A stretch of 64,000 nt of DNA from Actinomadura sp. KC06 (lineage in GTDB: Bacteria > Actinomycetota > Actinomycetes > Streptosporangiales > Streptosporangiaceae), in the NCBI RefSeq assembly GCF_004348735.1, contig NZ_SMKT01000012.1, forward strand, positions 21,374-85,373, written 5' to 3'. This document shows, one piece after another, positions 38,198 to 63,325 of this stretch. The position numbers and the translations under genes were made by a program. The stretch's first letter is position 1. Each line of letters begins with the position of its first letter. The notes beneath the pieces are model-generated. The model was not told the DNA's origin. It worked only from the letters and a program-made list of their open reading frames with translations, and did no database searches.

Positions 38198-38249
38198 TTT
38201 GCCGCCGTTTCGGAGGAATTGTGGTGCTGGCCGGAATCGGCGGACGCGG

Positions 38250-40381: not shown

Positions 40382-40405
40382 GCGATGCCGAGCAAAGGAG
40401 ATCCA

Positions 40406-41278: not shown

Positions 41279-41293
41279 GTTAGGCTGCCCTTA
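41275..41293. promoter_or_regulatory. Iron box (IdeR/DmdR type), copy 2
   Basis: TTAGGTTAGGCTGCCCTTA, identical to copy 1 over 20 consecutive bases (41277-41296). It overlaps the ATPase stop and lies 73 bp before the binding-protein gene, giving that gene its own iron-controlled start. Confidence 0.8.
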
Positions 41294-41365
41294 TTTACGC
41301 CTGTTAATGTACGTCTGCTCTGGAACGATCCAGCGGCGTCCGGCCTGGAAAGCAAGGGATTTCGC

Positions 41366-44214: not shown

Positions 44215-44218
44215 GTCG

Positions 44219-45919
44219 ATGACGACCCCTGACGAACAGCAGCCCCGCACGGGCTCCGCGATCCTCCGGACCGCGCTGCGCCGCAACATCGGCGCGATGA
44301 CCGGCGGCACCGTCCTCATGGGCCTGTACCAGGCGGGCGAGACCGCCTTCCCCATCGCGCTCGGCCTGATCGTCGAGCACACGATGCGGGACCGGAGCCT
44401 CGGCGCGCTCGCCCTGTCCATCGCCGCGCTCGCCGTGATCATCACGACGGTGTCGTTCTCATGGCGGTTCGGGATGCGCGTCCTGCAGAAGGCCAACACG
44501 ACCGAGGCGCACCGCTGGCGGGTGGAGGTCGCGTCCCGCGGGCTCCAGCCGGTGGCCAGGGACACCGATCTCAAGTCCGGCGAGGTGCTGACCATCGCCA
44601 CCGAGGACGCCGACCAGACCGCCGACATCATCGAGGTGGTGCCGCTGCTCATCAGCTCGCTGGTCGCGGTGCTGGTCGCGGCGGTCGCGCTGGGCCTGGC
44701 GAGCGTCCGCCTCGGCCTGCTGGTGATCGCGGGGACGATCGCGATCCTGACGATCCTGAGCGTGCTGTCCAGGCGGATCGGCTCCGGCACCCGCGAGCAG
44801 CAGGCACGGGTGGCGCGGGCGGGCGCGAAGGTCGCCGACCTGATCATCGGGCTCCGCCCACTGCGCGGCTTCGGCGGCAACCACGCGGCGTTCGGCTCCT
44901 ACCGGACGGTCAGCACGGAGGCCAAGCACCAGGCGGTGATCGTCGCGCGGGCGAACGGCGCGTACGCGGGCGCCGCGCTGGCCCTCAACGCGCTGCTGGC
45001 CACCGCCGTGACGCTCGTGGCGGGACGGCTCGCGTTCCAGGGCCAGATCACCATCGGCCAGCTCGTCATGGCCGTCGGGCTCGCGCAGTTCATCATCGAG
45101 CCGCTCAAGCTGTTCTCGCAGATGCCGACATACGTGATGATCGCGCGGGCGTCGGCGCAGCGGATGGCGCTGGTCCTCGCCGCGCCGCCGGTGACGACCC
45201 CGGGCCGCGGCCGTCCGGCGCCGGGCGGCGGCCTCGACGTCGACGGCGTCCGGTATGGGGCCTTGAACGAGCTGAAATTCACGGTGCCGTCCGGCGAGTT
45301 CGTGGCGATCACCGCCTATCAGCCGCGCGCGGCGGCCGACCTCGCGTCGGTGCTGGCGGCCGCCGTCCCGCCCGACGCGTACGAGGGCGTGGTGCGGGTC
45401 GGCGGGCAGGAGACGGCCGACCTGTCGATCGAGACGCTCCGCGAGCACATGCTGGTGAACCCCTACGACGGGGAGATCTTCGCGGGCACCCTCCGCACGA
45501 ACATCGACCCGTCGGGCGCCGGACGGATGATCGCCGAGGCCGTCGCGGCGTCCATGCTGACCGACGTCGTCGCGCTCCACCGCGACGGGCTCGACCACCC
45601 CGTCCGGGACCGGGGCGCGAACCTGTCCGGCGGGCAGCGGCAACGGCTGTCGCTGGCCCGCGCCCTCGCCGCCGACACCGACGTCCTCGTCCTGCACGAC
45701 CCGACGACCGCCGTCGACGCCGTCACCGAACAGCTCATCGCGCGCAACATCGCCGCACTGCGCCGGGGCCGCACCACCATCGTGATCACCAGCAGCCCGC
45801 CCTTCCTGGACGCCGCCGACCGGGTCCTCGTCCTGGACGGCGGCGTCATCACCGCCGAGGACACGCACCGCAACCTGCTCGGCACCGACGAGACCTACCG
45901 GCTGGCCGTGGCCCGCTGA
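44219..45919 (+). CDS. ABC transporter subunit B (fused permease-ATPase), degenerate Walker A
   Basis: 566 residues from ATG 44219, four bases after subunit A. Exporter-fold helices (residues 20-315), then an ATPase in which Walker A is unrecognisable (ITAYQPRAAADL, about 364) and the catalytic Glu is lost (VLVLHDPTTAVD), while the signature LSGGQRQR (about 470) is perfect. It therefore complements subunit A in a heterodimer. Last gene of the iron-regulated run. Confidence 0.9.
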   Translation: MTTPDEQQPRTGSAILRTALRRNIGAMTGGTVLMGLYQAGETAFPIALGLIVEHTMRDRSLGALALSIAALAVIITTVSFSWRFGMRVLQKANTTEAHRWRVEVASRGLQPVARDTDLKSGEVLTIATEDADQTADIIEVVPLLISSLVAVLVAAVALGLASVRLGLLVIAGTIAILTILSVLSRRIGSGTREQQARVARAGAKVADLIIGLRPLRGFGGNHAAFGSYRTVSTEAKHQAVIVARANGAYAGAALALNALLATAVTLVAGRLAFQGQITIGQLVMAVGLAQFIIEPLKLFSQMPTYVMIARASAQRMALVLAAPPVTTPGRGRPAPGGGLDVDGVRYGALNELKFTVPSGEFVAITAYQPRAAADLASVLAAAVPPDAYEGVVRVGGQETADLSIETLREHMLVNPYDGEIFAGTLRTNIDPSGAGRMIAEAVAASMLTDVVALHRDGLDHPVRDRGANLSGGQRQRLSLARALAADTDVLVLHDPTTAVDAVTEQLIARNIAALRRGRTTIVITSSPPFLDAADRVLVLDGGVITAEDTHRNLLGTDETYRLAVAR

Positions 45920-45932
45920 CCCGACTCCCGAG

Positions 45933-46877
45933 TCACTGCTGGGCCACTGCCATGGCTCGCAGCTCTATGTCCGCCGCCACCGACCGGAGGGCCTCGAGGA
46001 CGAGCTTCACGTGCGGCAGCCGCGCGTCACCGATCCGGGTGAACGCATGGACGACCCGGACGACCGGATGGACCAGGGGGTGCAGGCTGACGTTCGAGGT
46101 GTCGGCGGGCAGCGCCATGCGCGGCACCAAGGCGACTCCGGCGCCGACGGCGACGAGTTCGGTCAGCACGGAGAAATCGCTGGCGATCACGGCGGGGCGG
46201 GGCACGAACCCCGCGCTTCCGCAGGCGCGCCTGGTCAGCTCGTGGCAGGAGGTCTCGGGGCCCGGCATCAGCCAGTTCTCGTCGGCGAGGTCGGCGAGGT
46301 TCACGCGCTGCCCGGCAATCAGGGTGCGCTCGGCGGCCAGATGCTGAGGCAGGGCCAGCAGTACCGGCTCGTCCATGAGCCGGTGCTGTTCGCAGCCCGC
46401 CGGCAGGTCGCGGGGCAGCAGGCTGTAGGAGTGGACGATCGCGATGTCGCTGTCGTGGCGGCGCAGCCCCTCCGCGGCCTCGTCCGGCTCATGTTCGATG
46501 ACGCGCAGCTCGGGTGAGCGCCCCCGCTCCTGGGAGAGCGCGCGCCACATCCGGGACACCAGAACCCGGGCGGCCGACGGGAAGGCGGCGACGCGGACCA
46601 GCCCCTGGTCTCCGCCGCGCAGCGCGCGAAGATCGGCCTCGACGGTGGCGAGCTGGCCGAGGATGACCTCGGCGTGCTCGACCAGCAGGTTCCCGGCCGC
46701 CGTCAGCCGCAGCCTCCTGCCCTGCTTCTCCAGCAGCGGCATGCCGGCCTCCTTCTCCAGCGCGGCCAGTTGCTGGGACACGGCGGGACCGCTGAGGTGC
46801 AGGGCCTCGGCGGTCGCCGTGACGGTGCCGTGGACCTGGAGTTCGCGTAGCAGCCGCAGGCGGCGTACCTCTAACAA
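45933..46877 (-). CDS. LysR-family regulator (exporter-linked)
   Basis: 314 residues from TTG 46877, giving the subfamily start M-L-E-V-R-R-L-R-L-L-R-E-L, with AGGAAGG upstream; GTG 46886 is the alternative. Winged helix (GTVTATAEALHLSGPAVSQQ, then KQGRRLRLTAAG) plus effector domain (VRVAAFPSAARVLVSRMWRA, then SDIAIVHSYSLL). Divergent from the EamA gene (46950), the classic LysR-exporter pair for amino acids or analogues. It may sense the bes-type product or precursor. Confidence 0.88.
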   Translation of the reverse strand: MLEVRRLRLLRELQVHGTVTATAEALHLSGPAVSQQLAALEKEAGMPLLEKQGRRLRLTAAGNLLVEHAEVILGQLATVEADLRALRGGDQGLVRVAAFPSAARVLVSRMWRALSQERGRSPELRVIEHEPDEAAEGLRRHDSDIAIVHSYSLLPRDLPAGCEQHRLMDEPVLLALPQHLAAERTLIAGQRVNLADLADENWLMPGPETSCHELTRRACGSAGFVPRPAVIASDFSVLTELVAVGAGVALVPRMALPADTSNVSLHPLVHPVVRVVHAFTRIGDARLPHVKLVLEALRSVAADIELRAMAVAQQ

Positions 46878-46903
46878 GAAGAACACCTTCCTGGTTCCGA
46901 AAG

Positions 46904-46922
46904 GAAGATTAATTAGATCTTC
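46904..46922. promoter_or_regulatory. Palindrome between LysR and EamA genes
   Basis: GAAGAT-N7-ATCTTC, an exact inverted repeat in an AT-rich patch of the 72-bp divergent gap; candidate LysR binding site. It lacks a strict T-N11-A. Confidence 0.45.
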
Positions 46923-46949
46923 ATCATTGTATAGGGAAGGCTGGGACCT

Positions 46950-47870
46950 GTGAATCGATCGAAGACACTTCGCTTTCCGGCCCTGGTCACGACGGTCGTC
47001 CTGTGGGCGTCGGCCTTCCCCGCGATCCGGGTGGCGGTCGACGGCCTGGACGTGGGAGGCCTGTCGTTCTGGCGCCTGGCCGTGGCCTCGCTCGCCCTCG
47101 CGGCCGTCAGCCCGCTGCTGAAGGTCCGCCGGCCGCGCAGGCGCGATCTCCTGCTGATCGCGCTGTGCGGGGCCACGGGGATGAGCGCCTACCAGTTATT
47201 GCTCAACTGGGGCGAGGTCCACGTCCCGGCGGGTACCGCGAGCCTGCTGATCGCCACCGCTCCGGTGTTCAGCGTGCTGCTCGCGACCGCGTTCCTGGGC
47301 GAACGCCTCACCACGACGATCGTGCTCGGCAGCATCATCGCGATCTCCGGCGCGGCGGTCATCGCCTACGCGGGCGGTTCGACCCGGGTCACCACCAGCG
47401 CCCTGGCCATCCTCGCGGCCGCGGTCGTGCAGGGCGTCTACCACTTCGCGACCAAGCCGCTGCTCAGGCGCTACACCGGGCTGGAGGTCGCCTGCTACGC
47501 GATGTGGGCGGGCACGATCTTCCTCCTGCCCCTGGCGCCCGCGGCGGCGCGCGGGCTGGCGCAGGCCCCCGCCGACGCCATCGGATCGGCGGTCTACCTC
47601 GGGCTGCTGCCCTCCGCGCTGGGCTTCGTCACCTGGGGGTACGCGGTCGCCCGCTACACGATCGCCGAGTCCACCGCCGCGCTCTACCTCGTCCCGCCCG
47701 TCGCGATCGTGGTCGCCTTCGTCTGGCTCGGCGAAAGGCCCACCCTGGTCGACCTGCTCGGCGGCGTGGTCAGCATGGTCGGCGTCGTGGTGATCAATCG
47801 CCGCTTCACCCGGCCGCCGACGTCCGCACCCGAGGATGACCCCGCCGTTCAGCGCGCGAAGACCAGGTGA
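46950..47870 (+). CDS. EamA/DMT-family exporter
   Basis: 306 residues from GTG 46950 with ten predicted helices and two EamA repeats (WASAFPAIRVAVDGLDVGGL ... APVFSVLLATAFLGERL, and the second ending PPVAIVVAFVWLGERPTLVD). Family members export amino acids, analogues or metabolites. Next to a LysR regulator and close to the alkyne amino acid genes, it is a good candidate to export the product or its peptide; the substrate is inferred. Confidence 0.9.
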   Translation: MNRSKTLRFPALVTTVVLWASAFPAIRVAVDGLDVGGLSFWRLAVASLALAAVSPLLKVRRPRRRDLLLIALCGATGMSAYQLLLNWGEVHVPAGTASLLIATAPVFSVLLATAFLGERLTTTIVLGSIIAISGAAVIAYAGGSTRVTTSALAILAAAVVQGVYHFATKPLLRRYTGLEVACYAMWAGTIFLLPLAPAAARGLAQAPADAIGSAVYLGLLPSALGFVTWGYAVARYTIAESTAALYLVPPVAIVVAFVWLGERPTLVDLLGGVVSMVGVVVINRRFTRPPTSAPEDDPAVQRAKTR

Positions 47871-47933
47871 TGCGACACAGCATGATGGAACGGTCCATTC
47901 GAGGCGTGACGGGCGCCGGGGCCGCGCGGGGAT

Positions 47934-49157
47934 CTACGCCGTGGGGGCCTGCACTGCCTTCAGCGCGGTCGTCACCATCAGCCGGACGCCGAGCGCGATG
48001 CATCTTTCGTCGACATCAAAGGCACCGACATGCAGGTCGTACTCGTCGGCGCGGTCGAACCGCCGTACGCCCAGTCGGCCCAGGGCCCCGGGAACCGATT
48101 CGAGGTAGTAGCCGAAGTCCTCTCCACCGAGGCTCTGAGGGGTGTCGACCACGCCGTCCTCGCCGAGTACCGTCCGTGCGGCCGTACGGAACAGCTCGAC
48201 GCTCGTCTCCTCGTTGACGGTGGGCGGGGTGCCGCGTTCGTACGTCAGCTCGGTCTTGACGTCGTACGCTCTGGCGACGGTGTCCAGAAGGGCCTCCATG
48301 AGATCGGGCACGGTGTGCCAGAGGCCTCCGTCCAGGCATCGGACGGTGCCTTCGGCGACGCCGTCATCGGGGATCGCGATGGCCACCGAACCCGCGGCCA
48401 CCCGTCCCCAGACGAGGCTGAGGCCGGCCCGGGGGTCCACCCGGCGGGACAGGGCCGCGGGCAGTTCGGTGAGGACCTTGCCCAGCGCGTACACCAGGTC
48501 CGCGGTCAGGTGGGGACGCGCGGTGTGCCCGCCGGGCCCGCCCACCCGCACGCGCACCTTGTCGCACGCCGCTGTGACGGGCCCGGCCCGGAGACCGAAC
48601 TCGCCGACGGGGAGGCGCGGGTCGCAGTGCAAGGCGAAGATCCGCCCGACGGATGCCAGACCGCCGGCGTCGATGACCTCGCCCGCCCCGCCGGCCAGGC
48701 CCTCCTCGGCCGGCTGGAAGACCAACCGCACCCGGCCGGGCAGCAGCCCCGCGTCCGCCCATTGGGCGAGGAAGAGACCGGTGCCGAGCAGGATCGCGGT
48801 GTGCACGTCGTGACCGCAGGCGTGACAGGCTCCCCGCAGCCGCGAACGGTACGGGACGTCCTTCTCGTCCGTCACCGGCAGCGCGTCGATGTCGGCTCGC
48901 AGCGCTACCGCTGGACCGGCGCCCGAGCCGATGTCGCAGATCAGGCCGGTGCCTTTCGGCAGGCCGACAGGCCGCAGCCCGCCCCCGGTCAACGCCTCGG
49001 CGATCCGGGCGGTCGTCCTGTGCTCCGCGAATCCGAGTTCCGGATGCATGTGCAGAGCGCGGCGAAAATCGATCAGTTCGTCCTCTGATCTGGTCAGGAA
49101 ATCGTCGAGCCGTTTTCGTAGAATTTCCTCGTTTTCATCAGGGCTGGATTCCTGCAT
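47934..49157 (-). CDS. M20D amidohydrolase (HipO/IAA-amidohydrolase type)
   Basis: 407 residues; ATG 49157 has GGGAGGT five bases upstream, better than GTG 49163. M20D metal motif HACGHDVHTAILLG, QPAEEG, FALHCDP, GGHTARPH lid contact and terminal SLGGEDFGYYLE. These enzymes remove acyl or aminoacyl groups from amino acids. In the bes context it could release the free alkynyl amino acid from the dipeptide made by the ligase at 50353, but this is inference. Confidence 0.88.
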   Translation of the reverse strand: MQESSPDENEEILRKRLDDFLTRSEDELIDFRRALHMHPELGFAEHRTTARIAEALTGGGLRPVGLPKGTGLICDIGSGAGPAVALRADIDALPVTDEKDVPYRSRLRGACHACGHDVHTAILLGTGLFLAQWADAGLLPGRVRLVFQPAEEGLAGGAGEVIDAGGLASVGRIFALHCDPRLPVGEFGLRAGPVTAACDKVRVRVGGPGGHTARPHLTADLVYALGKVLTELPAALSRRVDPRAGLSLVWGRVAAGSVAIAIPDDGVAEGTVRCLDGGLWHTVPDLMEALLDTVARAYDVKTELTYERGTPPTVNEETSVELFRTAARTVLGEDGVVDTPQSLGGEDFGYYLESVPGALGRLGVRRFDRADEYDLHVGAFDVDERCIALGVRLMVTTALKAVQAPTA

Positions 49158-49187
49158 GCGCACCTCCCGTGCGGCTCGCTTTTGCCG

Positions 49188-50132
49188 CTACACGGGTACT
49201 GCTTCGTGCAGCGCTGAAATTTCTTGGAGGAGATAGGTGTGCGTCTCCTCCAAGCAGCCAGGGCCGCACTGCTCAAGCGGCCTGCGTTGGACGACCACTT
49301 GGTAGCGGGCATCTCCGACTCCGACCTGCACCATGCAGACGGCCTCATCAGTCGCCGCGTAGAACAGTCGTCCCATCCGGACGTCGTCCACCTTGAGTGC
49401 ACCGGTGTGAATACGGATGAAGTGCTCGGCGGCCTGTGCCGGTTCTGGCACACCGGCCTTTCCGCGGTAGCGGTTCAGAGATATCTCGTCGCGGTAATAG
49501 GCTTCGGCCGACGAGATCGCCTGTTCCGGACTGAGAGCGCCGTAGTACAGGCCGTGGGGAAGGCACACGAGATTGGCCGCATAGCGGTCGCCGCCGACGT
49601 GGGTGGTCTCCCACACCGCGTCCCCGAAACGGGCCTGCAAACCGCGTGCGAGTGGAACTCCGTGGCGGGCGCAGCACACGTTCCTCTTACCGTTCACGCA
49701 CACCAGCAGGATCGGCCCGGCGACGCGCGAGCCGAAGGCGGGCGGACGACCGGAGCCCGCGGCCCGCAGATCAAGCCCCGCCAATTCCTCGTCATCGTCC
49801 AGTTCCCGGCCCTCCAGCCAGGGGGGATGGCCCTGGCGGTCGTCCCAGGCGGCGGCGTCGAACGGACCAGACCACCCCACGTAGATCTGACGGGGCGGCG
49901 GTGTGCGCCGCCTCCCCGGGCGCCGGATGAGCTGCACTCGCAGCCCGTGGGAACGGGCCCGCTCCACCGCATCGGCCAGCGGGGCCGTCAAGCCGGTTCC
50001 CTCAATCCGATCGGCCCAGGGGCCTCGATGCTCGATCAGCAGCCAACCGCGCGCCCTGACGGTCGCGCTGGCCATCGTCGGCACGCCGCCTGAATGGCTG
50101 CCAAGGCAATGGCTGCACTCATGGAATTCCAC
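49188..50132 (-). CDS. Sucrase/ferredoxin-like (thioredoxin-fold) protein
   Basis: 314 residues from GTG 50132, which has AAGGGAGG at ideal spacing. Family PF06999 features: early C-x2-C (CSHCLGSHSGG), RGWLLIEHRGPWADR, LLVCVNGKRNVCCARHGVP and HVGGDRYAANLVCLPHG. The thioredoxin-like [2Fe-2S]-type fold suggests electron transfer. It is encoded back-to-back with the ligase gene and 30 bp before the M20D gene on the same strand. It could supply electrons to the diiron or 2OG-iron enzymes, but that is speculative. Confidence 0.85.
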   Translation of the reverse strand: MEFHECSHCLGSHSGGVPTMASATVRARGWLLIEHRGPWADRIEGTGLTAPLADAVERARSHGLRVQLIRRPGRRRTPPPRQIYVGWSGPFDAAAWDDRQGHPPWLEGRELDDDEELAGLDLRAAGSGRPPAFGSRVAGPILLVCVNGKRNVCCARHGVPLARGLQARFGDAVWETTHVGGDRYAANLVCLPHGLYYGALSPEQAISSAEAYYRDEISLNRYRGKAGVPEPAQAAEHFIRIHTGALKVDDVRMGRLFYAATDEAVCMVQVGVGDARYQVVVQRRPLEQCGPGCLEETHTYLLQEISALHEAVPV

Positions 50133-50352
50133 CGGATGCCTCCCTTTCAGCTGGAGTGGGGTGCGGCCGGTCGACCCGCATTCGCCTTTCTTCGGATCAT
50201 CCTACGCCGTTATGTCCGAAAAATTCACGACCACCGGCGGCGGCCTCTGAAACGTGCCGAAAAGATGGCAGCCGACTGGTGATTCAAGTAGAATCCGGAC
50301 GGTCTCGCCGGAGCGCCCGGAGTCACTCAACCTGAGCGGAGGATGTACCTGC

Positions 50353-51738
50353 ATGCCCGAAGGTTCATCGACAATGATTCTTCTCTATGCTTTTCAGTAC
50401 GCCGAGCGCGCCTTGGCAGAAGTGCCCTACCTCAGGTTCTCCGCCGAGCGAACCCTGTGTTTTCTCGACGACCTCCGCGACCCGCGCAGCAGGATCGTCG
50501 CCGTGATGTCGGAGCCCGTCGACCCGTACACGCTCGAATACCACTTCCGGGACATCTTCCGATTCGACGACCGGATGGTGGAGAGTGCGCGGGAGCGGCT
50601 GACCATCGTGGTCCCCGCCGCTCCCGAGGTCCGTCCGCTGGACGAGCTCGTCCACCGCGACGACCAGGTCATGGAGCTGCTGCGGAACACCGTCCGCGCT
50701 GATCCCGCGGCGGTCATCGTCAATTTCGCCGCGTCACGGCGGACGGACGAGCTCGCGAGGGCGATCGGTTCGAGCGCCGAAGAGAGCGACCACCTGTTCG
50801 CCGACCGATGGGGAGGCAAGGCCGGCGGCAAGGAGCTCCTGATCCGCGCGGGTGTCGCCGTCCCCGGGGGGACCCCGGAGCTCGCGCACGGCGAGGCGGC
50901 GGTCGTGTCGGCGGTCAAGCAGCTCACCTCCGGGCCGATACCGCCGCGGCGCGTCCTGGTGAAGTTGAGCGCGAGCACCTGGGCCGCGTCGATCGGCAAC
51001 GTGCTCGTCGACTGCGACCGGCTCCTCCGCACCAGGGACCTGGTCGGGTCGGCCGAGATGATCCGCATGCCCGGGGACGACTTCCGCCGCGAACTCGCCG
51101 AGAGCGGAGCGATCGTCGAGGAGTTCGTCGACGAGGCCGTCTCCTCGCCGAGCGCACAGGGATGGATCGGGGACGGCGGCACGGTCGACACGATCGCCTG
51201 CCACGAACAGCTGCTGGTCGACGGCCAGTACTGGGGGTGCCGGTCCGCGGTGGACGAACAGTGGCGGCCCGCCATGGTGACGGCGATGGAGCGCACCGGC
51301 GCGGCCCTCGCCGAACTGGGTCACCGGGGCTCGTTCGGAGTGGACTTCGTGACCGTGCCGCGGCGCGGGCTGCTCGCGGTGGAGGTCAACCTGCGCAAGG
51401 TCGGGCCCAGCCATGTGGTCCGGTACGTCGAGGCGATCGCGGGCGCGAAGGCAGGAAAGGACGGGCTTGTGCGCAGGCCGGACGGACGGCGGGTGCACTA
51501 CTCCCACCGGCGTCTGTTCGAGCCCGACGTCCTGACGGCTCTCGACCCGAGGTCCGCCGTCGATCGGCTGCGCGCGGAGGGGCTCCTCTACCGCCATGAG
51601 GCGGGCGAAGGGGTGGCGCTCCATGTGCTCGGCGGGTTGGACACCTGCGGATTCGTCGAACTGACCGCGCTGGCGCCGTCCGCCGAACTCGCCGACACGC
51701 ATCGCGAAGCCGCCGAGGCGGCGCTCATGCGCACCTGA
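50353..51738 (+). CDS. besA: ATP-grasp peptide ligase, PGM1-like (BesA role)
   Basis: 461 residues from ATG 50353; ATG 50374 is possible. Residues 10-150 are a pre-ATP-grasp domain; 160-330 hold the ATP-grasp (DRWGGKAGGKELLIRAGVAV, then RRVLVKLSASTWAASIGNVL, then VEEFVDEAVSSPSAQGWIGD); GSFGVDFVTVP and LLAVEVNLRKVGPSHVV carry the Mg-binding acid and Asn. The C-terminus matches the PGM1 peptide-ligase tail. In the beta-ethynylserine pathway BesA couples propargylglycine to glutamate before hydroxylation. This gene occupies that role beside besB-E homologues; identity of the coupled residue is not readable. Confidence 0.75.
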   Translation: MPEGSSTMILLYAFQYAERALAEVPYLRFSAERTLCFLDDLRDPRSRIVAVMSEPVDPYTLEYHFRDIFRFDDRMVESARERLTIVVPAAPEVRPLDELVHRDDQVMELLRNTVRADPAAVIVNFAASRRTDELARAIGSSAEESDHLFADRWGGKAGGKELLIRAGVAVPGGTPELAHGEAAVVSAVKQLTSGPIPPRRVLVKLSASTWAASIGNVLVDCDRLLRTRDLVGSAEMIRMPGDDFRRELAESGAIVEEFVDEAVSSPSAQGWIGDGGTVDTIACHEQLLVDGQYWGCRSAVDEQWRPAMVTAMERTGAALAELGHRGSFGVDFVTVPRRGLLAVEVNLRKVGPSHVVRYVEAIAGAKAGKDGLVRRPDGRRVHYSHRRLFEPDVLTALDPRSAVDRLRAEGLLYRHEAGEGVALHVLGGLDTCGFVELTALAPSAELADTHREAAEAALMRT

Positions 51739-51759
51739 GCCCCTCTTTTGGTAAGGCAA

Positions 51760-51815
51760 CGTTTCGCCGGTCTGACGCGCCTCCCGCGAGGGAGACGAGC
51801 CAGACCGGCGAAACG
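51760..51815. terminator. Large bidirectional terminator between besA-like and besB-like genes
   Basis: CGTTTCGCCGGTCTG (51760-51774) pairs perfectly with CAGACCGGCGAAACG (51801-51815); the loop contains a small hairpin CTCCC-GCGA-GGGAG (51781-51794). Sits between convergent genes. Confidence 0.85.
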
Positions 51816-51830
51816 ATGGCCCCCGCACCT

Positions 51831-53408
51831 TCACCCGACCGGGCTCGCCGGGCTCTTGGGGGAGCCGAAGACTTCCTCGAAGGTCTCCAGAATCTGGTCC
51901 GGGTCTTCGGTCCCGACGGAGATCCGGAGCATGTCCCGATGCAGTCCGTGGGCGCGCAGTACGGCACGTCCCTCGGGGGTGGACAGCAGATCGAAGTGGG
52001 CGACGAAGATCTGGGGCGACGCCATCGTGAAATCGGCGCCGAAACTCGGCCCCTTCGCCACGGCGAGCCGGTCGTACGCCCGCTCCAGCGGCACCCTCAG
52101 ATCCACCATGAGCAGACCGCCGGGCGCGTCGGGGCGGCGTTCGATCTTCCGGTAATTGGCCCGGGAACGGGCGTCGTAGGGCCAGGCCACTCCCCTGACC
52201 AGGCTGGACTCCTGAAGAAGCCGCGCGAGCGCGACCGCGTTGGCGTTCACCCGGTCGATCCGGGCGGCGTAGTCACGGATCCGGGCGGCGACCCGGGCCA
52301 CGTCGCGGTGGTAGGGCTCGTCACCGTGGCGCGCCAGCCCGTCCCGCAGCCTGGTGGCGAAGGACGAGCCGGCGTTGACCACCGCCGCGCCCATCAGCAC
52401 GTCCGCGGAACCGGTCGCGTACTTCGTCAGGCTCTCGACCGCAACGTCGGCGTAAGGAAGCACGTCGACGTTGTACGGCGTGGCGATCGTCGCGTCGATC
52501 ACCAGCGCGCACCCGGCGCGGTCGGCGATCTCCCGCAGCGCCGGGACGTCCGGCACCTGGAGGCTCGGATTGCTGGGAACCTCCACGACGATGCCCGCGA
52601 GCTCACCCGCCTGCGCCGCCGCGGCACGGGCGACCATCGCCAGGTCGAACGGGTCCGGCAGGACCATGCGCTCGACGTCGACGACACGCTTCTCCAGCAG
52701 GCTCACGGTGTCGAAGAAGATCCAGCCCAGCTGGATCCACCGCCGCCGTCCGTTCGCCCGCTGGATCTCCGACAGCGCCGCGACGGCCGCGGCGACCGCG
52801 TTCATACCGCTGTTGTGCAGAGAGACGTCGGCCACCGAGCGGGCGCTGTAGGCGTCCGAGAGCACCTCCCTGACGGACGCGGCCGGATCACCGTCCGGTG
52901 CGCTCCCGACCTGAGGGTCGTCGATCAGACCGGCGTCGATCAGACCGGCGGTCAGGAGGACGTCCTCCGCCTTGCGCGACGACAGGTGGCCACCGGTGTG
53001 CTGCACGTACTCGCGAACCCGGGTCCGCGCCACGCTCGCGTCACGGGGCAGCCGCACGCCGTGCACCCCGAGGGCCTCGAACGCGGCGTCGGGCGCGAGC
53101 CCGGCGTGGGCCGCGGCGGCCGCCGCGGCCCGTGCCGAGCAGGTGAGGACCATGTCCTCGGCCGGTCCGCCGATCTCGCCGGCCACCAGCCGCGCCACCC
53201 GCGTCACGTAAGGGTGCGCGCGGAATCGCGGATACCCCCACGGGATGCGCCGCAGCACGGCCTGGTCGCCCGACTCGAACCCGGTCATCGACCCGACGTC
53301 CGGGATCGACACCGACACCGAATGCACGGGGCCGGGGATCCGCCGTCCGGCGGGGACATGCCGCAGGCTGACCTCCGCCCACGGCCGTGCTCCCTGCTCG
53401 ATGCTCAC
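51831..53408 (-). CDS. besB: Cystathionine gamma-synthase-like PLP enzyme (BesB-like)
   Basis: 525 residues from GTG 53408, overlapping the diiron oxidase stop. Cys/Met-metabolism PLP fold: Asp to the pyridine N in LVIDATIATPYN (D305) and Schiff-base lysine K329 in ESLTKYATGS. Residues 1-180 form an N-terminal region with SVSVSIPDVGSMTGFESGD and WGYPRFRAHP, as in fungal STR2-type synthases. BesB converts 4-chloroallylglycine to propargylglycine by gamma-elimination. Placement directly after besC- and besD-like genes supports this role. Confidence 0.8.
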   Translation of the reverse strand: MSIEQGARPWAEVSLRHVPAGRRIPGPVHSVSVSIPDVGSMTGFESGDQAVLRRIPWGYPRFRAHPYVTRVARLVAGEIGGPAEDMVLTCSARAAAAAAAHAGLAPDAAFEALGVHGVRLPRDASVARTRVREYVQHTGGHLSSRKAEDVLLTAGLIDAGLIDDPQVGSAPDGDPAASVREVLSDAYSARSVADVSLHNSGMNAVAAAVAALSEIQRANGRRRWIQLGWIFFDTVSLLEKRVVDVERMVLPDPFDLAMVARAAAAQAGELAGIVVEVPSNPSLQVPDVPALREIADRAGCALVIDATIATPYNVDVLPYADVAVESLTKYATGSADVLMGAAVVNAGSSFATRLRDGLARHGDEPYHRDVARVAARIRDYAARIDRVNANAVALARLLQESSLVRGVAWPYDARSRANYRKIERRPDAPGGLLMVDLRVPLERAYDRLAVAKGPSFGADFTMASPQIFVAHFDLLSTPEGRAVLRAHGLHRDMLRISVGTEDPDQILETFEEVFGSPKSPASPVG

Positions 53409-54178
53409 GGCGTGGCGCTCACGAGCCGCTGCACCCCGTCCCAGTAGTTCTCGACGAGCCGCAGGAACTCGAACGCGCCCGCCTCGAACTCGGCACGCGC
53501 CTCGGCCGATTCCACATACGGCGCGATCGCGTTGAAGACGGAGTTGCTGTGCCCGACCTCGACGTCGATGTGCAGCGTCCAGAAGTGCCGGACGTCCTCG
53601 TCATACCCCTGGTTGGCGAGCCCGTCGTTGATCTTCGAGACCATGATCGAGGACATCGTCTCGTCGGCGTACAGCGCACCGAGCGCGGTGTAGATCGACG
53701 ACTCGGTGTAGAGCCGCCGGATACCGTCGTTGAGCTGCCGGGTCACCTCGAGCGGCTCGTACTCCGCCAGCTGCTCCCGCTCGATCCCGAGCCGGGACAG
53801 GAAGCCGGCGAAGACGGCCGAGTGCGTGGTCTCGCCGCCGACCTCGTCCGCCACGTTCAGGATGATCTCGCGCAGGATCATCTCGTCCCGGGTCTTGATC
53901 GCCATTCCGGTGATGTAGAACGGCAGGTACTGGAAGAAGTAGTAGCACTCGCTGAAGAACCGGCGTTCCTGCTCCGGCTCGAACGCCGTGGTGCGGTAGG
54001 CGTTCAGCAGCGGGTGCTCGACGGCGCGGTGGGACGCGATCCGGGCCAGCGTCTCGTCGAGGTAGGTCTTGATCTCCGGGTTCTCGACGGCGATCCGCCG
54101 CCGGATGCCGGCGTCGACGTTGTCGAAGTGCTCCCACACCGGCACCGAGGCGGGTTCGGTGGTCTTGAGCTCGGTCAT
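53405..54178 (-). CDS. besC: HDO-type diiron oxidase (BesC-like)
   Basis: 257 residues. Heme-oxygenase-like all-helical fold with the full diiron ligand pattern: E112 and H119 (DEVGGETTH), E173 (YADETM), H203, E207 and H210 (HIDVEVGH), matching E-x6-H and H-x3-[DE]-x2-H of CADD/BesC-like enzymes. BesC splits 4-chlorolysine oxidatively into 4-chloroallylglycine, formaldehyde and ammonia. GGAGCAGGAAGA precedes the ATG. An 82-bp gap with a 12-bp tandem repeat separates it from the halogenase gene; the stop overlaps the PLP gene. Confidence 0.85.
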   Translation of the reverse strand: MTELKTTEPASVPVWEHFDNVDAGIRRRIAVENPEIKTYLDETLARIASHRAVEHPLLNAYRTTAFEPEQERRFFSECYYFFQYLPFYITGMAIKTRDEMILREIILNVADEVGGETTHSAVFAGFLSRLGIEREQLAEYEPLEVTRQLNDGIRRLYTESSIYTALGALYADETMSSIMVSKINDGLANQGYDEDVRHFWTLHIDVEVGHSNSVFNAIAPYVESAEARAEFEAGAFEFLRLVENYWDGVQRLVSATP

Positions 54179-54191
54179 TCTTCCTGCTCCT

Positions 54192-54230
54192 TGCTGTCGT
54201 GGCTGCTGTCGTGGCTGCTGTCGTCGTGGC
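54192..54230. repeat. 12-bp tandem repeat between besD- and besC-like genes
   Basis: TGCTGTCGTGGC occurs twice in tandem (54192-54203, 54204-54215) with a partial third copy. It lies in the transcript gap before besC translation starts; it may tune coupling or simply vary by slippage. Confidence 0.7.
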
Positions 54231-54260
54231 TTGTCGTGCCGCCGCGTGCCCGCTCGCCGG

Positions 54261-55031
54261 TCAGCGCTCGACCGAGGTGGCCGCCGAGACGCCGGCGTCG
54301 TCCCACCAGCGGTCGTCGGCGTCGAACTCGCGGTTCAGGTCGCGGGTACCCGCCCACGTCATGTTGAGGATGATGCGGGTGGTGCTCTCTTCGAGGGGGA
54401 TCGTCCGGTGCAGGGTCGTGTCGGTCCGCAGGAAGTACACGTCGCCGGACGTGAAGAAGTAGGTGTCGATCGGGTTGTCGACCAGGTACCTGTTGATCTG
54501 CGGGTTCGACTTGTCCCAGGAGGTGTGCGGGACGCACTGGAGCAGACCGCCCACATTGATCGGCGGCGATACCAGAACCCAGATCAGGGCGAAGCTGAAG
54601 TCGCCCCAGTGCCATCCGTGCGTGTCCCCGCTCTGCTCCTGGCGGGTGATGAGGAACTCCTCGTCCGGCTTCGGGCACGGGTGCAGCTTCTCGCCGGCAA
54701 TGGCCTCCAGCGGCGAGGTCAGCTCCGAGTGCGCGTACAGCCTGCGCACCAGCTCGCTGTCGTTCGCGATCGTCTCGCTGGGCACCACGGACATCGATCG
54801 GCGGGTGTTGTCGGTGGTGGCCAGGCGCAGGTCCCGGCGCTCGGCGTGGAGGTCGAGAAGGCGTTCCGCCTCCTTCCGGAGGAGGTCGCGGACGTTCTCC
54901 TTGATGAGCTCGGTCACGGTGACGATGCCGTACCGGTGAAAGCGATGCGAGAGCCGCTGGATGTCGCTCCTATCGAGCTTTTCGCACACTCCGTTGAGTT
55001 CGGCTTTGTTCTCCGCATGGTCGACGGTCAT
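54261..55031 (-). CDS. besD: Radical Fe/2OG amino acid halogenase (BesD-like)
   Basis: 256 residues from ATG 55031 with GGAGG upstream. The iron site reads H141-W-G143 with distal H208, that is H-x-G...H: glycine replaces the usual carboxylate, leaving room for chloride, the hallmark of 2OG halogenases. With a constant offset of four, residues I recall as important in BesD (H134, H137, G139, D140, E120, H204, N219, T221) align with H138, H141, G143, D144, E124, H208, N223 and T225. It should chlorinate free lysine at C4. First gene of the besD-besC-besB operon, divergent from the besE-like gene. Confidence 0.88.
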
Positions 55032-55172
55032 GACGAACCTCCGGTATTGGCCGATGTGTGATTCGCCTCGAAGATCGCACCGGGCCGGCCCCGGAATCGG
55101 ATCTCAGGCTGGCCTGATAGTAGGCAGATCGCGCGCTTTCAACCAAACAGTTCTGCGTGCACTTTTGAACCC

Positions 55173-55199
55173 TTGCGAAACTTCGCCGCGCATTACAAT
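55173..55199 (+). promoter_or_regulatory. Weak promoter candidate before besE-like gene
   Basis: TTGCGA (55173-55178), 15-bp spacer, TACAAT (55194-55199), in the 224-bp divergent gap. The -10 is good, the spacer short. GTTC-N13-GAAC (55151-55171) just upstream is a possible activator half-palindrome. Confidence 0.35.
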
Positions 55200-55255
55200 C
55201 CCGTCATGTCGTTTTCACCGTGCTATCCGGCCCCGGCCATCGAACTGGAGGACAA

Positions 55256-56053
55256 ATGTCCGGCACGGCGCTCGATCCCACGTTCACCGCGGTGGACTCC
55301 CCCGCCTTTTCCCGCGCGCAGATCGAGGCTCTCGCGACGGGCGGCCTCGCCGCACTTCGCGTCCCCCGCCTATTCGGGCCCGACCTCGTCGGCGGGACGG
55401 TCGGCAGGCTGCACCGGCTGCCGGCGGCCGACTACCAGCCGGCCCGGACGGCGATGACGCGTTTCGGTCCCGCCCTCAACGACTACCGCCATCCCGACGG
55501 CGGCCTCGATGCCGACCGCTACTGGCACGACGCCGAAACCGCCCGGGCCCAGTGGCGGGGGACGGGCTTCGATCCGGACCCGACCAGGTTGTGCCTGGAC
55601 GCTCTCGGCGACGCCTGGGGAGAGGCGCTGCGTCCCGCCACCATCGGCGGGCGTCCCGCGTTCGTCGGCATGCTGCGTGAGATAAACGCTGGCACGCTCA
55701 TCCATTACGACGACATTCGCCTGGAGTACCCGGACGGTCTCTTCGATCAGGAGATCGTCGCGCAGCTCACCTTTAACCTCTGGCTCGTGGTGCCCGGCGA
55801 CGGCGGGGAGACCACCGTATGGCGGCACCGGTGGGCGTTGGCCGACGACGTCCATCGTCACAAATACGGCTACACCCCGGCGGTCGTTGAGAACTACCAG
55901 GAGGTCACCGTGACCCCAGAACTCGGGGACGGGTTGCTTTTCAATCCGAACAACTACCACACGGTACGGCCGAACGGTGAAGGGCATCGGAGAATAACGC
56001 TGGCATTTTTCTTCGGCCTCACTCCCGAGGGGAGTCTCGTCGCGTGGTCCTGA
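55256..56053 (+). CDS. besE: 2OG-Fe(II) oxygenase (BesE-like hydroxylase)
   Basis: 265 residues from ATG 55256 with GGAGG upstream. Complete facial triad: H150-Y-D152 (LIHYDDIR) and H235 (NPNNYHTVRP), with R245/R246 for 2-oxoglutarate. Unlike the halogenase at 54261 it retains the Asp, so hydroxylation is expected. BesE hydroxylates the dipeptide of propargylglycine to the beta-ethynylserine form. The gene is divergent to the halogenase operon and ends at a strong terminator. Confidence 0.75.
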   Translation: MSGTALDPTFTAVDSPAFSRAQIEALATGGLAALRVPRLFGPDLVGGTVGRLHRLPAADYQPARTAMTRFGPALNDYRHPDGGLDADRYWHDAETARAQWRGTGFDPDPTRLCLDALGDAWGEALRPATIGGRPAFVGMLREINAGTLIHYDDIRLEYPDGLFDQEIVAQLTFNLWLVVPGDGGETTVWRHRWALADDVHRHKYGYTPAVVENYQEVTVTPELGDGLLFNPNNYHTVRPNGEGHRRITLAFFFGLTPEGSLVAWS

Positions 56054-56076
56054 GCCGACGATGTGGTGCCATCGGC

Positions 56077-56108
56077 AGAGGGCCCGCCGCAATTGCGGCG
56101 GGCCCTCT
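56077..56108. terminator. Bidirectional terminator after besE-like gene
   Basis: A 32-bp perfect palindrome centred on AATT with arms AGAGGGCCCGCCGC / GCGGCGGGCCCTCT, between the convergent oxygenase and antiporter genes. Confidence 0.85.
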
Positions 56109-56109
56109 C

Positions 56110-57453
56110 TCAATCGCTCTGGACGGCGTCGGGAAGGCGACTCCATTCGCGGTGCCTTGCCTCGCGTAGTTCCTCGTCGGCCGTCCGCTCGACACGCTCC
56201 ATGGCCAGTCTCAGCAGCGGCGGCGCCATCAGCGACGTGACCACGGCGATCAGCACCACGATGGTGTAGGCCGGAACGCTGAGAATGCCGAGCCTCAGCC
56301 CGACCATCGCGACGGTGACCTCGATGACTCCGCGGGCGTTGAGACCGGCGCCCAGGGCCAGCGCCTCCCACCGGTTCAGCCCGCTCAGCTTCGCGCCCGC
56401 CCAGGCCCCCACGAACTTGCCGATGATCGCGACCGCCAGCATGCCCAGCCCGGCCACGGCGATCCTCGGATCGAGGAGCGCGCCGAGATCCATGCGCAGG
56501 CCGGCGGTGGCGAAGAAGACCGGCCCCAGGACGGACAGAGCGATGGTGCGGAGCGGGGCCAGGCGAGCAGGTTCGATCCCGCCTACGCGTCCGATGAGGA
56601 TGCCCGCGAGGAAGGCGCCCAGGATCGGCTCCAGGCGCAGCGCATGGGTGGCGGCCGCGGCGAGGAGGATCAGCACGACAGCGGCCGCGACCACCGGGCC
56701 CGGCTCGTTGCCGAGGCCGACCAGCCGGAACGTATGCCGGACCGCCCAGCGCCCGGCGGTCAGCGAGATGAGGGCCACGACCGCGACGGAGGCGAGCGAC
56801 TGCAGGATGACCGTGCCGCGGACGCCGGCGACGGCGACGGACGACACGACCGACAGCATGAACCAGCCGAAGACGTCGTCGATCACCCCGGCGGTCAGGG
56901 TGAGCTGACCGACGTTGCGGTGGAGCAGCCGCATGTCCATCAGCGTCTTCGCGATGACGGGAATGGCGCTCACACACATCGCGACGCCAAGAAAGAGCGC
57001 GAAGACGACTCGGTCCGCGCCCTTCGGGGATAAACCGGCGGGAAGCAGGAACGCCGCGCCGATGCCCAGCCCGAGCGGGACGATCAAGCCGCCGCCGCTG
57101 ACCATGACGGCCGTCCTGCCTCGCCGGCGCACAAGGTCCAGATCCAGGTGCATCCCGGTGACACCCACCAGCAGCAGCACTCCGATCTGGGCGACGGCGT
57201 CCAGAAGGTGCATCTGCTCCGCACCGCCAGGGAAGAACCGCCCCGACAGGTCGGTGGGCAGACGGAGGAGGAGCGACGGCCCGAGCAGGATGCCCACAAG
57301 GAGTTCGCCGACGACGGCGGGCATTCCAAGCCTCGCCGCGAGCCTGCCGAAGGCCATCGCCAACGCCAGAATCGAGGCCAGCTGGAGCAGAAAGACGAGC
57401 AATTGATCCGCTGAAAGCACCGCGACGGTCGTGGGCGTGGATGAGGAAATCAT
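56110..57453 (-). CDS. Cation:proton antiporter (CPA2/KefB type)
   Basis: 447 residues, about twelve helices. Na+/H+ exchanger fold: ARLGMPAVVGELLVGILLGP, VLLLVGVTGMHLDLDL, VSAIPVIAKTLMDM, TAGVIDDVFGWFML (paired Asp of the ion site) and FFATAGLRMDLG, ending with a charged cytosolic tail. Similar antiporters accompany several actinomycete antibiotic clusters. A StrR-like site lies 133 bp upstream, suggesting control by the regulator at 57824. Ion homeostasis or resistance role is inferred. Confidence 0.88.
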   Translation of the reverse strand: MISSSTPTTVAVLSADQLLVFLLQLASILALAMAFGRLAARLGMPAVVGELLVGILLGPSLLLRLPTDLSGRFFPGGAEQMHLLDAVAQIGVLLLVGVTGMHLDLDLVRRRGRTAVMVSGGGLIVPLGLGIGAAFLLPAGLSPKGADRVVFALFLGVAMCVSAIPVIAKTLMDMRLLHRNVGQLTLTAGVIDDVFGWFMLSVVSSVAVAGVRGTVILQSLASVAVVALISLTAGRWAVRHTFRLVGLGNEPGPVVAAAVVLILLAAAATHALRLEPILGAFLAGILIGRVGGIEPARLAPLRTIALSVLGPVFFATAGLRMDLGALLDPRIAVAGLGMLAVAIIGKFVGAWAGAKLSGLNRWEALALGAGLNARGVIEVTVAMVGLRLGILSVPAYTIVVLIAVVTSLMAPPLLRLAMERVERTADEELREARHREWSRLPDAVQSD

Positions 57454-57823
57454 GTGCTCCCCGGACTGTCATGGCTCGACCACAGGAAAGCCGGGCGGAG
57501 GGTTGATTTCGGACCTTAACCGACGCGGTCGGCGAGGCACATCGACGAGCCGCCCGCCCTGAATGATCGGTAGGTCCGTGAGATCGTTCGAGTTTGGACA
57601 GGGACAAACACGAACAGTGCCGTCCTGATCACGCAATGACGACGGAGGTCATTCAACTGAGGATTTTCTTCAGTTGAAAGAAGGCTCAGCTTCATGGACG
57701 TGTCCAACGGTTGCGGCCGGTCACCGTCCCGGCAGGTCGCGGTCGTCTCGCGGGGCACCGTCCGGCAGGTTTCGGACGAGCATTCCGGCGAACCAGGCCC
57801 GTCCGAGTTACGTGGGGTGCCCG
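57454..57823. other. Regulatory gap with no supported gene
   Basis: 370 bp between the antiporter start and the ParB-type regulator stop. Holds the 30-bp inverted repeat at 57586-57615; short ORFs here lack coding character or ribosome-binding sites. Confidence 0.5.
57586..57615. promoter_or_regulatory. StrR/NovG-like activator site
   Basis: GTTCGAGTTTG (57586-57596), 8-bp spacer, CAAACACGAAC (57605-57615): arms match at 10 of 11 positions and begin/end with GTTCG/CGAAC as in StrR-type sites. Upstream of the antiporter and beside the StrR-like gene. Confidence 0.6.
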
Positions 57824-58840
57824 CTAATCCAGTTGGTTCTCACGTTCCTGGAGTTCCCGGGCAAGGCTACGCCACATTTCAGAGCACTGAATGGCCAAGT
57901 CGGCGACGACCGCTAGAAGATGTGCCGGCAGGTTTTCCACCACGCGCGACTGGTGGGCTCTCAGTTGCTGCTGCAGATGGAGCCAGCGCAGGAGTTCTCT
58001 CCCCGATTCGGAAAACCGCAGTGACGGATCTTTCCGCAATGACCGCAGCCGTTCCTGCACGCTGTTCTTATCCGTTCTCCGGACGGTGCGCAGGCCGCTC
58101 ACCGGTTCCGCCGGCCGGTCGCGATCGTCCGGCGTCGCCCCGTCGGGTCGCGACTTGCGCCGGTCCCTGGACGCGACCGGGTCCTCGCCTCGGCGCAATC
58201 GCTGCCTGACGTCGTGCGCGGTTCCCACGGAGACGCCCGCGACCTTGGCGATCTTGGTCAACGGTGCGTCCGGCTCGGCTGCCAGGGCCTCCGCGGCCTG
58301 GCGCCGTCCCTCGGCGGCGCTGAGCGGACGGCGGCGCCCGTCCTTGCCGATCCGTGTCGCCTCCTCGGGAGATCGCCGGCCCAGCCTCGCCCGGATTCCG
58401 CTGACCGTCTTGGCGGATAAACCCGTGCACTCGGCGATGGCCCGGTCCGACATGTTCTGCCGCGAAAGGATGATGCGCTCGGCCGCGGCCCGCCGTTCCT
58501 CCATGGAAAGGGGAAGGCCATGCCTCACATTGGACTTCACCGCTTCGATGAAGGCCGCTTCCCCGGTGCCCTCGAAGAATTCGACCCTGACGGCGTCCTC
58601 ACCTTTGAGCTTGGCCGCGCGGAGCCGATGCATACCGTCGATGACCCGCATCGTGGGCCGATGGACCAGAATCGGCGGCAGTGCGGATTCGATTTCGACC
58701 AGCCTTTTGATATGCCTCGCGTCCTCCCCTTCGAGGCGCGGAGTATCGGCCGGCCGAAGCTGATCGATGGGGACCAGGTACGTTTCTTGTGCACCGGAGA
58801 AAGATTCTCCGGACCTGTCGACGCGATCGGAAGCATTCAT
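57824..58840 (-). CDS. StrR-like ParB-domain pathway regulator
   Basis: 338 residues. Residues 20-110 are a ParB/Srx-like domain (VPIDQLRPADTPRLEGEDAR, then PPILVHRPTMRVIDGMHRLR), followed by a helix-turn-helix (MSDRAIAECTGLSAKTVSGI) and a second one near 190-210 (LTKIAKVAGVSVGTAHDVRQ). This is the layout of StrR, NovG and glycopeptide-cluster activators, which bind GTTCG...CGAAC sites and switch on antibiotic operons. It lies at the right edge of the bes-like region. The C-terminal 90 residues are charged and helical. No plasmid parA or parS is nearby, so a partition role is unlikely. Confidence 0.85.
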   Translation of the reverse strand: MNASDRVDRSGESFSGAQETYLVPIDQLRPADTPRLEGEDARHIKRLVEIESALPPILVHRPTMRVIDGMHRLRAAKLKGEDAVRVEFFEGTGEAAFIEAVKSNVRHGLPLSMEERRAAAERIILSRQNMSDRAIAECTGLSAKTVSGIRARLGRRSPEEATRIGKDGRRRPLSAAEGRRQAAEALAAEPDAPLTKIAKVAGVSVGTAHDVRQRLRRGEDPVASRDRRKSRPDGATPDDRDRPAEPVSGLRTVRRTDKNSVQERLRSLRKDPSLRFSESGRELLRWLHLQQQLRAHQSRVVENLPAHLLAVVADLAIQCSEMWRSLARELQERENQLD

Positions 58841-59029
58841 ATATGTTCCTCAGTGCGCATCATCACGGAAGAAATGAGAGTGCCGCTGAGCAGACGTCAT
58901 CCTCACCTTCGACCAAGGTCGGCGGAGAGCTTCGGCCACGACTACCGACCCTGGCCCGGCGCTGACGTTGACGTGCACTACCGTCGGGGCTTCCACCGGC
59001 CAGCGGCCGTGACGGTCCATTTTTCCCCG

Positions 59030-59058
59030 GTTCCAAGGCCATTCGTTACAGGTGGAAC
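59030..59058. promoter_or_regulatory. 29-bp inverted repeat upstream of StrR-like gene
   Basis: GTTCCA-N17-TGGAAC, the length of StrR-type sites but with only six-base arms; a further TTGGAAC follows at 59060-59066. Possible autoregulatory site. Confidence 0.3.
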
Positions 59059-59160
59059 GTTGGAACGCAGCGACGCGCATTGAGAGGACCGCCCCATGTT
59101 TCTACTCCTCGTGTATCTGCGACGCCCACCGTCTGGCTATACCTTGCCAGCGGGTGACCA

Positions 59161-59200
59161 CTTGATCACATATCAAATATCGAATAGATCAATATGTCAA
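59161..59200. other. AT-rich palindromic block
   Basis: 29 of 40 bases are A or T in a GC-rich genome, with TTGAT...ATCAA and TGAT-N5-ATCA elements. Could be an integrase-arm/attachment region or a promoter; next to a decayed integrase. Confidence 0.35.
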
Positions 59201-59579
59201 CCGACCAATCTCATGGGTCACCCCGGCTCCGTTCCGCGACCGGCACGTATTTGATCACGCCAGGAGTTTCGGCGCTGCCCTCGATCTGTCCAAATTAGCC
59301 AGGGTGTTCGCAGACCAGGCTTAACGAGAAGTAAGACAGTGCGGCGGCGACGCAGCTACAGAAGAACGAAACCGCAAAGAAGAACACGCACCCAGATCCG
59401 GCCCGATGGCGCCACCGGGCTGGACGGCGACGAATACGGATTCACGGTGGGCCGGACGGGGTCTGACGTTGAGTTAACCCCTTTCCCTACAGGACGACAA
59501 GGATGCGGAGCAAACGCTTTCCATTACGCAGCAAGGCACCACGGTGGACCGGCCACTAACACGATTAGCGGCGGGCCGC

Positions 59580-60330
59580 TTAAGCACCGATGATCGTCGG
59601 CACTGTCGGCCGCCAGCTCGCAGCACATGGGTGACGGTCTTTCCGGCGGCGGTGTGCCAGCGAGGCCGCCATACCGCAACTCGTACAGCCGCGCCGACAG
59701 CAGCCTCGGCCGACTGCCGGTTCCGGTGCACCCGCAACGCAGCGATGGTCAAGGCGCTGTACGCGGTCTTGTGCAGTCACACCTGCAGGCGACCGCGGCA
59801 CCGTGCTCCAAGTCCACGTCCACCCAGCGCAACGCCGCCGCCTCACCACGCCGCAACCCCGCAACGCGATCAGCAGCAGGCGGCATTCAGCCGGTGGCCG
59901 CGGATGGCGTGCAAGAACGCGGCGGTCTGCTCGGCTCCCGGTCCGTCTCCAATGCTCCAGCCGGACAGCCGTCCACACCACCGCCCGCGGCCTCCGCCCC
60001 GTTGGTATCACCAGCAGCAGTGCAGACCTGCGCGGCGCTCGGGCCGCAGCCTGGCCGCGCTCACCTTCGGCGCTCTGTGGGCGCTGAGTTCGACACGGCC
60101 CGAGGCGCATGCGCACCTGCGAGGGCATGGCCTTAGCATGCGGTGCTGGAAACCGACCGCGACCAGGGTCGCCTCTCGGCGCTCCGTGACACGACCGCGA
60201 CGGCGTCAGCGAACACGTCCGACCCGAGGGGCCGAACCAGCCCCGCGACGCCTGCACCGCTGCCGAGGTCCTGGCCTGGCACCTCACCCTCACCGCAGTC
60301 GGCCTGACCGGCGACGCCCACGCGCCTGAG
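59580..60330 (-). pseudogene. Tyrosine recombinase/integrase, multiply frameshifted
   Basis: No single frame is intact, but the minus strand yields successive integrase pieces in different frames: RAVSNSA, EQTAAFLHAIRGHRL, RLLLIALRG, then LRRGEAAALRWVDVDLEHG (box I with the catalytic Arg of LRRGE), and TAYSALTIAALRVHRNRQSA. Each junction needs a frameshift, so the gene is dead. The C-terminal box II (H-x2-R...Y) was not found. It marks a former phage or integrative element between the bes-like and van-like regions. Boundaries are approximate. Confidence 0.65.
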
Positions 60331-60387
60331 CTATATCGCGGGTGTATCGAAAATCGCATACGTCACTGCAACAGCCTCCCGTCTTCA

Positions 60388-62222: not shown

Positions 62223-62268
62223 AGAGAAGCCCGCATGAACGGGGACTCGGAACGAAGGAGAGCGCGGA

Positions 62269-63249: not shown

Positions 63250-63325
63250 GAGGCCGGAGCGCCGGAGCCACGGGCGGGTCCGTTCGCATACGTCGGCGAT
63301 AGGTCGCGTTGCATACCCTGCGGAG

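Follow-up and report, generated by a model that had tools for sequence, protein, structure and literature searches.

The founding bes cluster, that of Streptomyces cattleya (Streptomyces/Streptantibioticus), encodes with BesA to BesE a set of proteins for the biosynthesis of beta-ethynylserine, an amino acid with a terminal alkyne. This compound is a threonine analogue that labels new proteins via click chemistry, as stated in PMC10250548, and the steps of BesD, BesC and BesB are described in PMC10187165. Here, a stretch of 64,000 nucleotides from Actinomadura sp. KC06 (contig NZ_SMKT01000012.1, C33 in our numbering), referred to as the window in the following, was analyzed. It contains at positions 50353-56053 an intact five-gene bes set that, as predicted from the sequences, very probably serves to convert L-lysine into beta-ethynylserine. 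For BesA and BesE, whose roles were reportedly established by Marchand in 2019, the functional assignment follows the NCBI protein names. No bes cluster in Actinomadura turned up in the literature searched, a weak negative as subscription papers were mostly outside reach. The five genes and the exporter gene that accompanies them are the following.

50353..51738, plus strand: BesA, ATP-grasp gamma-glutamyl-propargylglycine ligase (predicted); NF042917 655.2 bits (cut-off 750), 61% identical to S. cattleya
51831..53408, minus strand: BesB, pyridoxal phosphate (PLP) enzyme predicted to form the terminal alkyne; NF042918, PDB 9aua, K329
53405..54178, minus strand: BesC, heme-oxygenase-like diiron oxidase; NF042919, PDB 7twa
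54261..55031, minus strand: BesD, predicted lysine 4-chlorinase; NF042920, PDB 6nie, residues H141-W-G143 and H208
55256..56053, plus strand: BesE, predicted Fe(II)/2-oxoglutarate hydroxylase of the gamma-glutamyl dipeptide; 58% identical to S. cattleya, bes-linked clade
46950..47870, plus strand: EamA-family exporter; Pfam EamA, 73% identical to the bes-linked copy of S. cattleya

All five bes open reading frames are uninterrupted at the coordinates given by a first-pass annotation of this DNA. BesA comprises 461 amino acids when counted from an ATG with GGAGG ahead of it. BesB, BesC and BesD exceed the cut-offs of the NCBIfam models listed above (963.7 versus 800 bits, 546.6 versus 500 bits and 459.7 versus 450 bits, respectively). 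The score of BesA for NF042917, its sole NCBIfam match, stays below the cut-off, and BesE has no match in NCBIfam. By sequence, the closest solved structures are 9aua for BesB (E 1.7e-195), 7twa for BesC (E 4.7e-134) and 6nie for BesD (E 5.5e-132). At E-values of 1e-130 and beyond, chance is no explanation for these matches to the named enzymes, and the best matches of the halogenase, the diiron oxidase and the PLP enzyme do not lie in unrelated families. BesD has the halogenase form of the iron site, with HxG (H141-W-G143, together with H208) where hydroxylases have HxD, and BesE has kept the hydroxylase form with H162-Y-D164 and the distal H247 (residue numbers of a 277-amino-acid frame from 55220). 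K329 of BesB is located in the PLP-lysine motif and is invariant across the eleven clusters compared below, as are 142 of the 257 positions of BesC and 112 of the 256 positions of BesD.

The reference cluster of S. cattleya was taken from plasmid records (pSCAT/pSCATT; loci L043 and L044), and the window proteins were compared with it by tblastn. The identities amount to 61% for BesA, 70% for BesB, 79% for BesC, 77% for BesD and 58% for BesE, which is thus the least conserved of the five, and to 73% for EamA. Order and orientation of BesA-E are identical in both clusters. The same E-D-C-B-A arrangement is found in S. triculaminicus and S. griseocarneus (L006, L007), which like the window have BesA-E and EamA. 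Thus, the BesA-E type terminal-alkyne amino acid cluster that the first-pass annotation had proposed is borne out by the NCBIfam and PDB matches as well as by identity and synteny with S. cattleya, and the host, Actinomadura, does differ from that of the founding cluster. The annotation had also described besE as divergent from besD-C-B, which agrees with the strands on which these genes lie, and besD-C-B as one overlapping unit. The latter is true of besC and besB, which overlap by 4 bases (53405-53408), but not of besD and besC, which are 82 bases apart.

Seven further clusters, from S. catenulae, S. achromogenes, S. eurythermus, S. sp. NRRL S-31 and three Frankia (L005, L008-L012, L014), contain homologues of BesA-D; unlike in the window, BesE and EamA were not found in them. 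The eleven-cluster counts given here include the window and omit L013, which has no BesA. The fetched loci extend no further than about 12 kb on either side of BesB, and those of L008 and L010 are shorter, which makes absences there weaker. In a concatenated BesA-D tree of the eleven clusters, rooted on the three Frankia, the window and S. cattleya are basal in the streptomycete group, with their mutual order unresolved. The window cluster stands outside a 100/100 group formed by the six other Streptomyces clusters, which marks it as a deep lineage of its own and not as recently copied from any of these. Overall, this is a new and complete cluster of a family already known, bes, with ordinary core chemistry. 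As a diverged and complete cluster predicted to make beta-ethynylserine in another genus, it may provide new enzymes for making this compound.

Relatives of single Bes proteins also occur elsewhere. An Acidobacteriota contig (L013:6552-10000) encodes relatives of BesB, BesC and BesD (42, 54 and 52% identical), and BesA and BesE were not found on it. BesB-family PLP enzymes with identities of 26-41% are encoded in another 28 loci (L015-L042; mostly Verrucomicrobia, also Nostoc and Spirochaetales), for which no BesA, BesC or BesD homologue was detected at E <= 1e-10 in the fetched DNA, partly short stretches. The BesB family seems to extend beyond the lysine-halogenase pathway.

Going by the activities of relatives, BesD would install a chlorine at C4 of L-lysine. 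The resulting 4-chlorolysine would be fragmented by BesC to chloroallylglycine, from which BesB would eliminate chloride to give propargylglycine. BesA would couple propargylglycine to glutamate, and the resulting gamma-glutamyl dipeptide would be hydroxylated by BesE. Shown directly are the presence and order of the genes, the island described below and the clade of BesE, and all enzyme activities are deduced from relatives. The product of BesE is likely to be exported by EamA. The exporter gene accompanies BesE in all four clusters that have the latter, namely those of the window, S. cattleya, S. triculaminicus and S. griseocarneus, and is found in none of the seven BesE-less ones; these counts refer to related clusters and not to eleven independent cases. 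S. catenulae has neither BesE nor EamA though it is grouped with S. triculaminicus and S. griseocarneus, and both are likewise missing from the group of S. sp. NRRL S-31, S. achromogenes and S. eurythermus. This co-occurrence suggests that EamA handles the BesE product, and it leads to a simple prediction of the exported compound. The position of the exporter gene differs between the clusters. In S. cattleya it lies directly beside besA on the opposite strand, whereas in the window it is inverted relative to besA, so that both are on the same strand, with two extra genes in between, and it is divergent from a LysR gene.

The family to which BesE belongs is wider than the bes clusters and comprises 129 proteins at E <= 1e-8, of which 120 were listed. 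A quick tree was calculated from 105 rows, namely those of P0242-P0345 that are 240-300 residues long, three copies from clusters and the window protein, with P0346-P0360 and three further rows excluded. In this tree the window, S. cattleya and every known or inferred bes-linked copy fall into one 15-row clade with a support of 99 in the Shimodaira-Hasegawa-like approximate likelihood ratio test (SH-aLRT). Rows P0249 and P0250 are counted as bes-linked because their contigs are exactly as long as those of the BesB hits P0006 and P0008; the genomic context is known for part of the 15 rows, and P0250 has an unusual composition and forms a long branch. The position of the window protein in the bes-linked clade supports the reaction predicted for BesE. 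Outside this clade, many Streptomyces/Kitasatospora proteins in the range P0251-P0345, often named 'proline hydroxylase', are 51-61% identical to BesE.

Between besA and the exporter gene, two genes are located that are divergent from besA.

49188..50132, minus strand: Suc_Fer-like protein, candidate thioredoxin-fold [2Fe-2S] ferredoxin; Pfam Suc_Fer-like 48.4 bits (cut-off 34.9)
47934..49163, minus strand: M20D amidohydrolase, candidate gamma-glutamyl remover; TIGR01891 322.2 bits (cut-off 153.75)

The candidate cluster ligands of the Suc_Fer-like protein are invariant in 36 sequences, and a sequence search against solved structures gave no match for it up to E 10. The M20D protein contains the motifs CGHDVH, EE, HC and LH, which we take to be the metal-site ligands, and its relatives in the PDB include YxeP, an IAA-amino acid hydrolase homologue and N-alpha-acyl-glutamine aminoacylase. 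In view of the last of these relatives, and since gamma-glutamyl dipeptides count among the N-acyl amino acids, M20D might act as a deglutamylase that liberates beta-ethynylserine by removing its gamma-glutamyl moiety. The Suc_Fer-like protein might reduce the diiron centre of BesC. The mangotoxin cluster resembles the window in combining a heme-oxygenase-like diiron oxidase, MboA, with a redox gene; its product MboB is a dedicated partner of MboA, and the authors consider the two to be maybe the first such pair characterised (PMC13185094). By analogy, the Suc_Fer-like protein could serve BesC likewise. According to the same source, MboB is a reductase with a flavin and an Fe2S2 cluster, whereas the window protein has only the Suc_Fer-like domain, and we infer its pairing with BesC. 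Electron delivery to BesC by the one protein and gamma-glutamyl removal by the other are possible but doubtful roles. Just as tentative is the wider idea of a self-contained pathway, in which the Suc_Fer-like protein would be a dedicated BesC donor of a kind unlike MboB, M20D the in-cluster deglutamylase and EamA the exporter.

Initially, the Suc_Fer-like gene looked like the genus orthologue, as it is the sole PF06999 match in the genome and a PF06999 gene is present in 63 of 64 genus genomes. This was rejected, since the protein shares only 54-58% identity with 29 of the 62 other copies in the genus, and those are 69-95% alike among themselves. In its rpoB gene, the host is typical of the genus (median 95% to others, 94% among others; some rows of this comparison, at about 30%, were read in the wrong frame). 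The native Suc_Fer-like region of the host genome runs into a contig end (C27:1), and the native copy is therefore probably located in an assembly gap.

The bes genes and the two accessory genes lie in a stretch that differs from the surrounding DNA in its distribution.

45924..60316, strand not applicable: bes island, about 14.4 kb long, delimited by DNA search against genus genomes

A search with the DNA of 44001-64000 was performed in 64 genus genomes, the own genome included, with four candidate stretches scored per genome. The flanks 44001-45923 and 60317-63994 are conserved in the genus with up to 95% identity. Inside the island, among the matches listed, only the M20D gene was hit (about 75%, a paralogue elsewhere), and the edges of the island block recur on the fetched stretches of relatives. 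That relatives do not have the island is deduced mainly from these fetched stretches and from BesB, which at E <= 1e-80 is absent from all 64 genus genomes other than the host's own. At this threshold, BesB was found in the host's own genome alone, both among the 65 genus genomes and among 341 family genomes. A class sample gave four of 394, namely the own genome and three of one other genus, the latter below the BesB cut-off. A clean empty island site was rejected because the flanks are not adjacent in the relatives examined, and a circular contig because the contig ends do not overlap. The island makes two questions testable, namely the source of electrons for BesC and the identity of the enzyme that takes off the gamma-glutamyl group.

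Concerning the end product, the complete gene set and a BesE from the bes clade favour beta-ethynylserine itself, and no new alkyne is required. That the pathway ends instead with propargylglycine, the gamma-glutamyl dipeptide or a further derivative appears improbable. Such an outcome would fit the BesA score under the NCBIfam cut-off, the low conservation of BesE and the lack of BesE in seven of the eleven clusters; in the window, however, BesE is intact, with HxD and distal His kept, belongs to the bes-linked clade and is accompanied by the exporter seen only alongside BesE. Likewise, a novel alkynyl or chlorinated amino acid or peptide, which the first-pass annotation had envisaged, is not favoured, and none of the 30 window proteins searched with Pfam, a set that does not cover every open frame, showed a peptide synthetase domain. 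With the core pathway as described, the Suc_Fer-like and M20D genes could still be mere passengers that arrived together with the island or inserted into it and take no part in the pathway, to which we give an even chance. Neither gene was found in the ten comparison clusters, S. cattleya, S. triculaminicus and S. griseocarneus among them, so that the window stands alone among the eleven, and this weighs against both being required. Suc_Fer-like genes are moreover near-universal in the genus, and a second M20D, 70% identical, is encoded in the host genome. The divergence of the Suc_Fer-like protein from the genus copies argues in the opposite direction, as does the arrangement of the pair, with the Suc_Fer-like gene 24 bases upstream of the M20D gene on the same strand and both divergent from besA. 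An M20D gene was also found beside none of 57 other Suc_Fer-like loci within the 1.5 kb flank considered.

The contig itself might be an assembly chimera or a contaminant, in which case the host or the accessory context would be wrong. The genome (9.38 Mb, 421 contigs, 98.79% complete) has a contamination of 6.27%. In tetranucleotide composition, five pieces of the contig correlate with four other contigs at 0.71-0.81, while those four reach 0.84-0.91 among each other; with values of 0.80-0.90, stretches of ten other genus genomes are closer to these four than the contig is. In addition, relatives have the two blocks that flank the island at widely separated places or on separate contigs. Junctions in this region vary anyway, however, as the sequence of the relative G047 past the two flanks has no match in any other relative (6 and 7 compared). 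Over 7.8 kb the left flank shares 94% identity with G047, and over 3.7 kb the right flank shares 91-94% with G047 and G043, the latter matching the left flank over 619 bases only. Three other clusters (L006, L007, L043) also show this order of the core genes. Because the flanks are 91-95% identical to genus members, an assembly fault or contamination is unlikely.

Three further genes of the island adjoin those described so far.

45933..46886, minus strand: LysR-type regulator; Pfam HTH_1 and LysR_substrate, divergent from the exporter gene
56110..57453, minus strand: CPA2-type cation:proton antiporter; PF00999
57824..58840, minus strand: DNA-binding protein; HTH_23 29.1 bits and weaker HTH models only

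The cluster of S. triculaminicus, like the window, contains a CPA2 antiporter, a 52% relative located one gene away from BesE. As a bes-specific gene the antiporter was set aside, since 20 of the 64 genus genomes, counting the host's own, contain relatives at E <= 1e-100. The gene between antiporter and BesE in S. triculaminicus (L006:6339-6929) belongs to the nitroreductase family, has an 84% relative in S. griseocarneus and is a possible redox accessory. Of the flanking genes named in the first-pass annotation, the EamA exporter, the M20 amidohydrolase and the Na/H-type antiporter were confirmed by Pfam, and the LysR regulator and the Suc_Fer-like ferredoxin gene were missing from its list. 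Its statement that the accessory set differs from that of the founding cluster holds for the Suc_Fer-like/M20D pair but not for the exporter, which is common to S. cattleya. The StrR-like regulator that it had placed at 57824-58840 received no support from the models searched, since this protein matched HTH models only, no StrR or ParB-type model and nothing in NCBIfam.

The genus-conserved DNA that borders the island at 38124-45923 encodes a siderophore-type uptake operon (two FecCD proteins, an ATP-binding cassette (ABC) ATPase and a periplasmic binding protein) and an ABC exporter. Further upstream, about 32 kb of the window (2030-34322) have no match on G043:C475, where 1-2029 and 34323-36145 adjoin. 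This stretch is possibly a second island and carries genes for an NB-ARC/TPR protein (6499-9168) and a LamB/YcsF protein (28556-29347).

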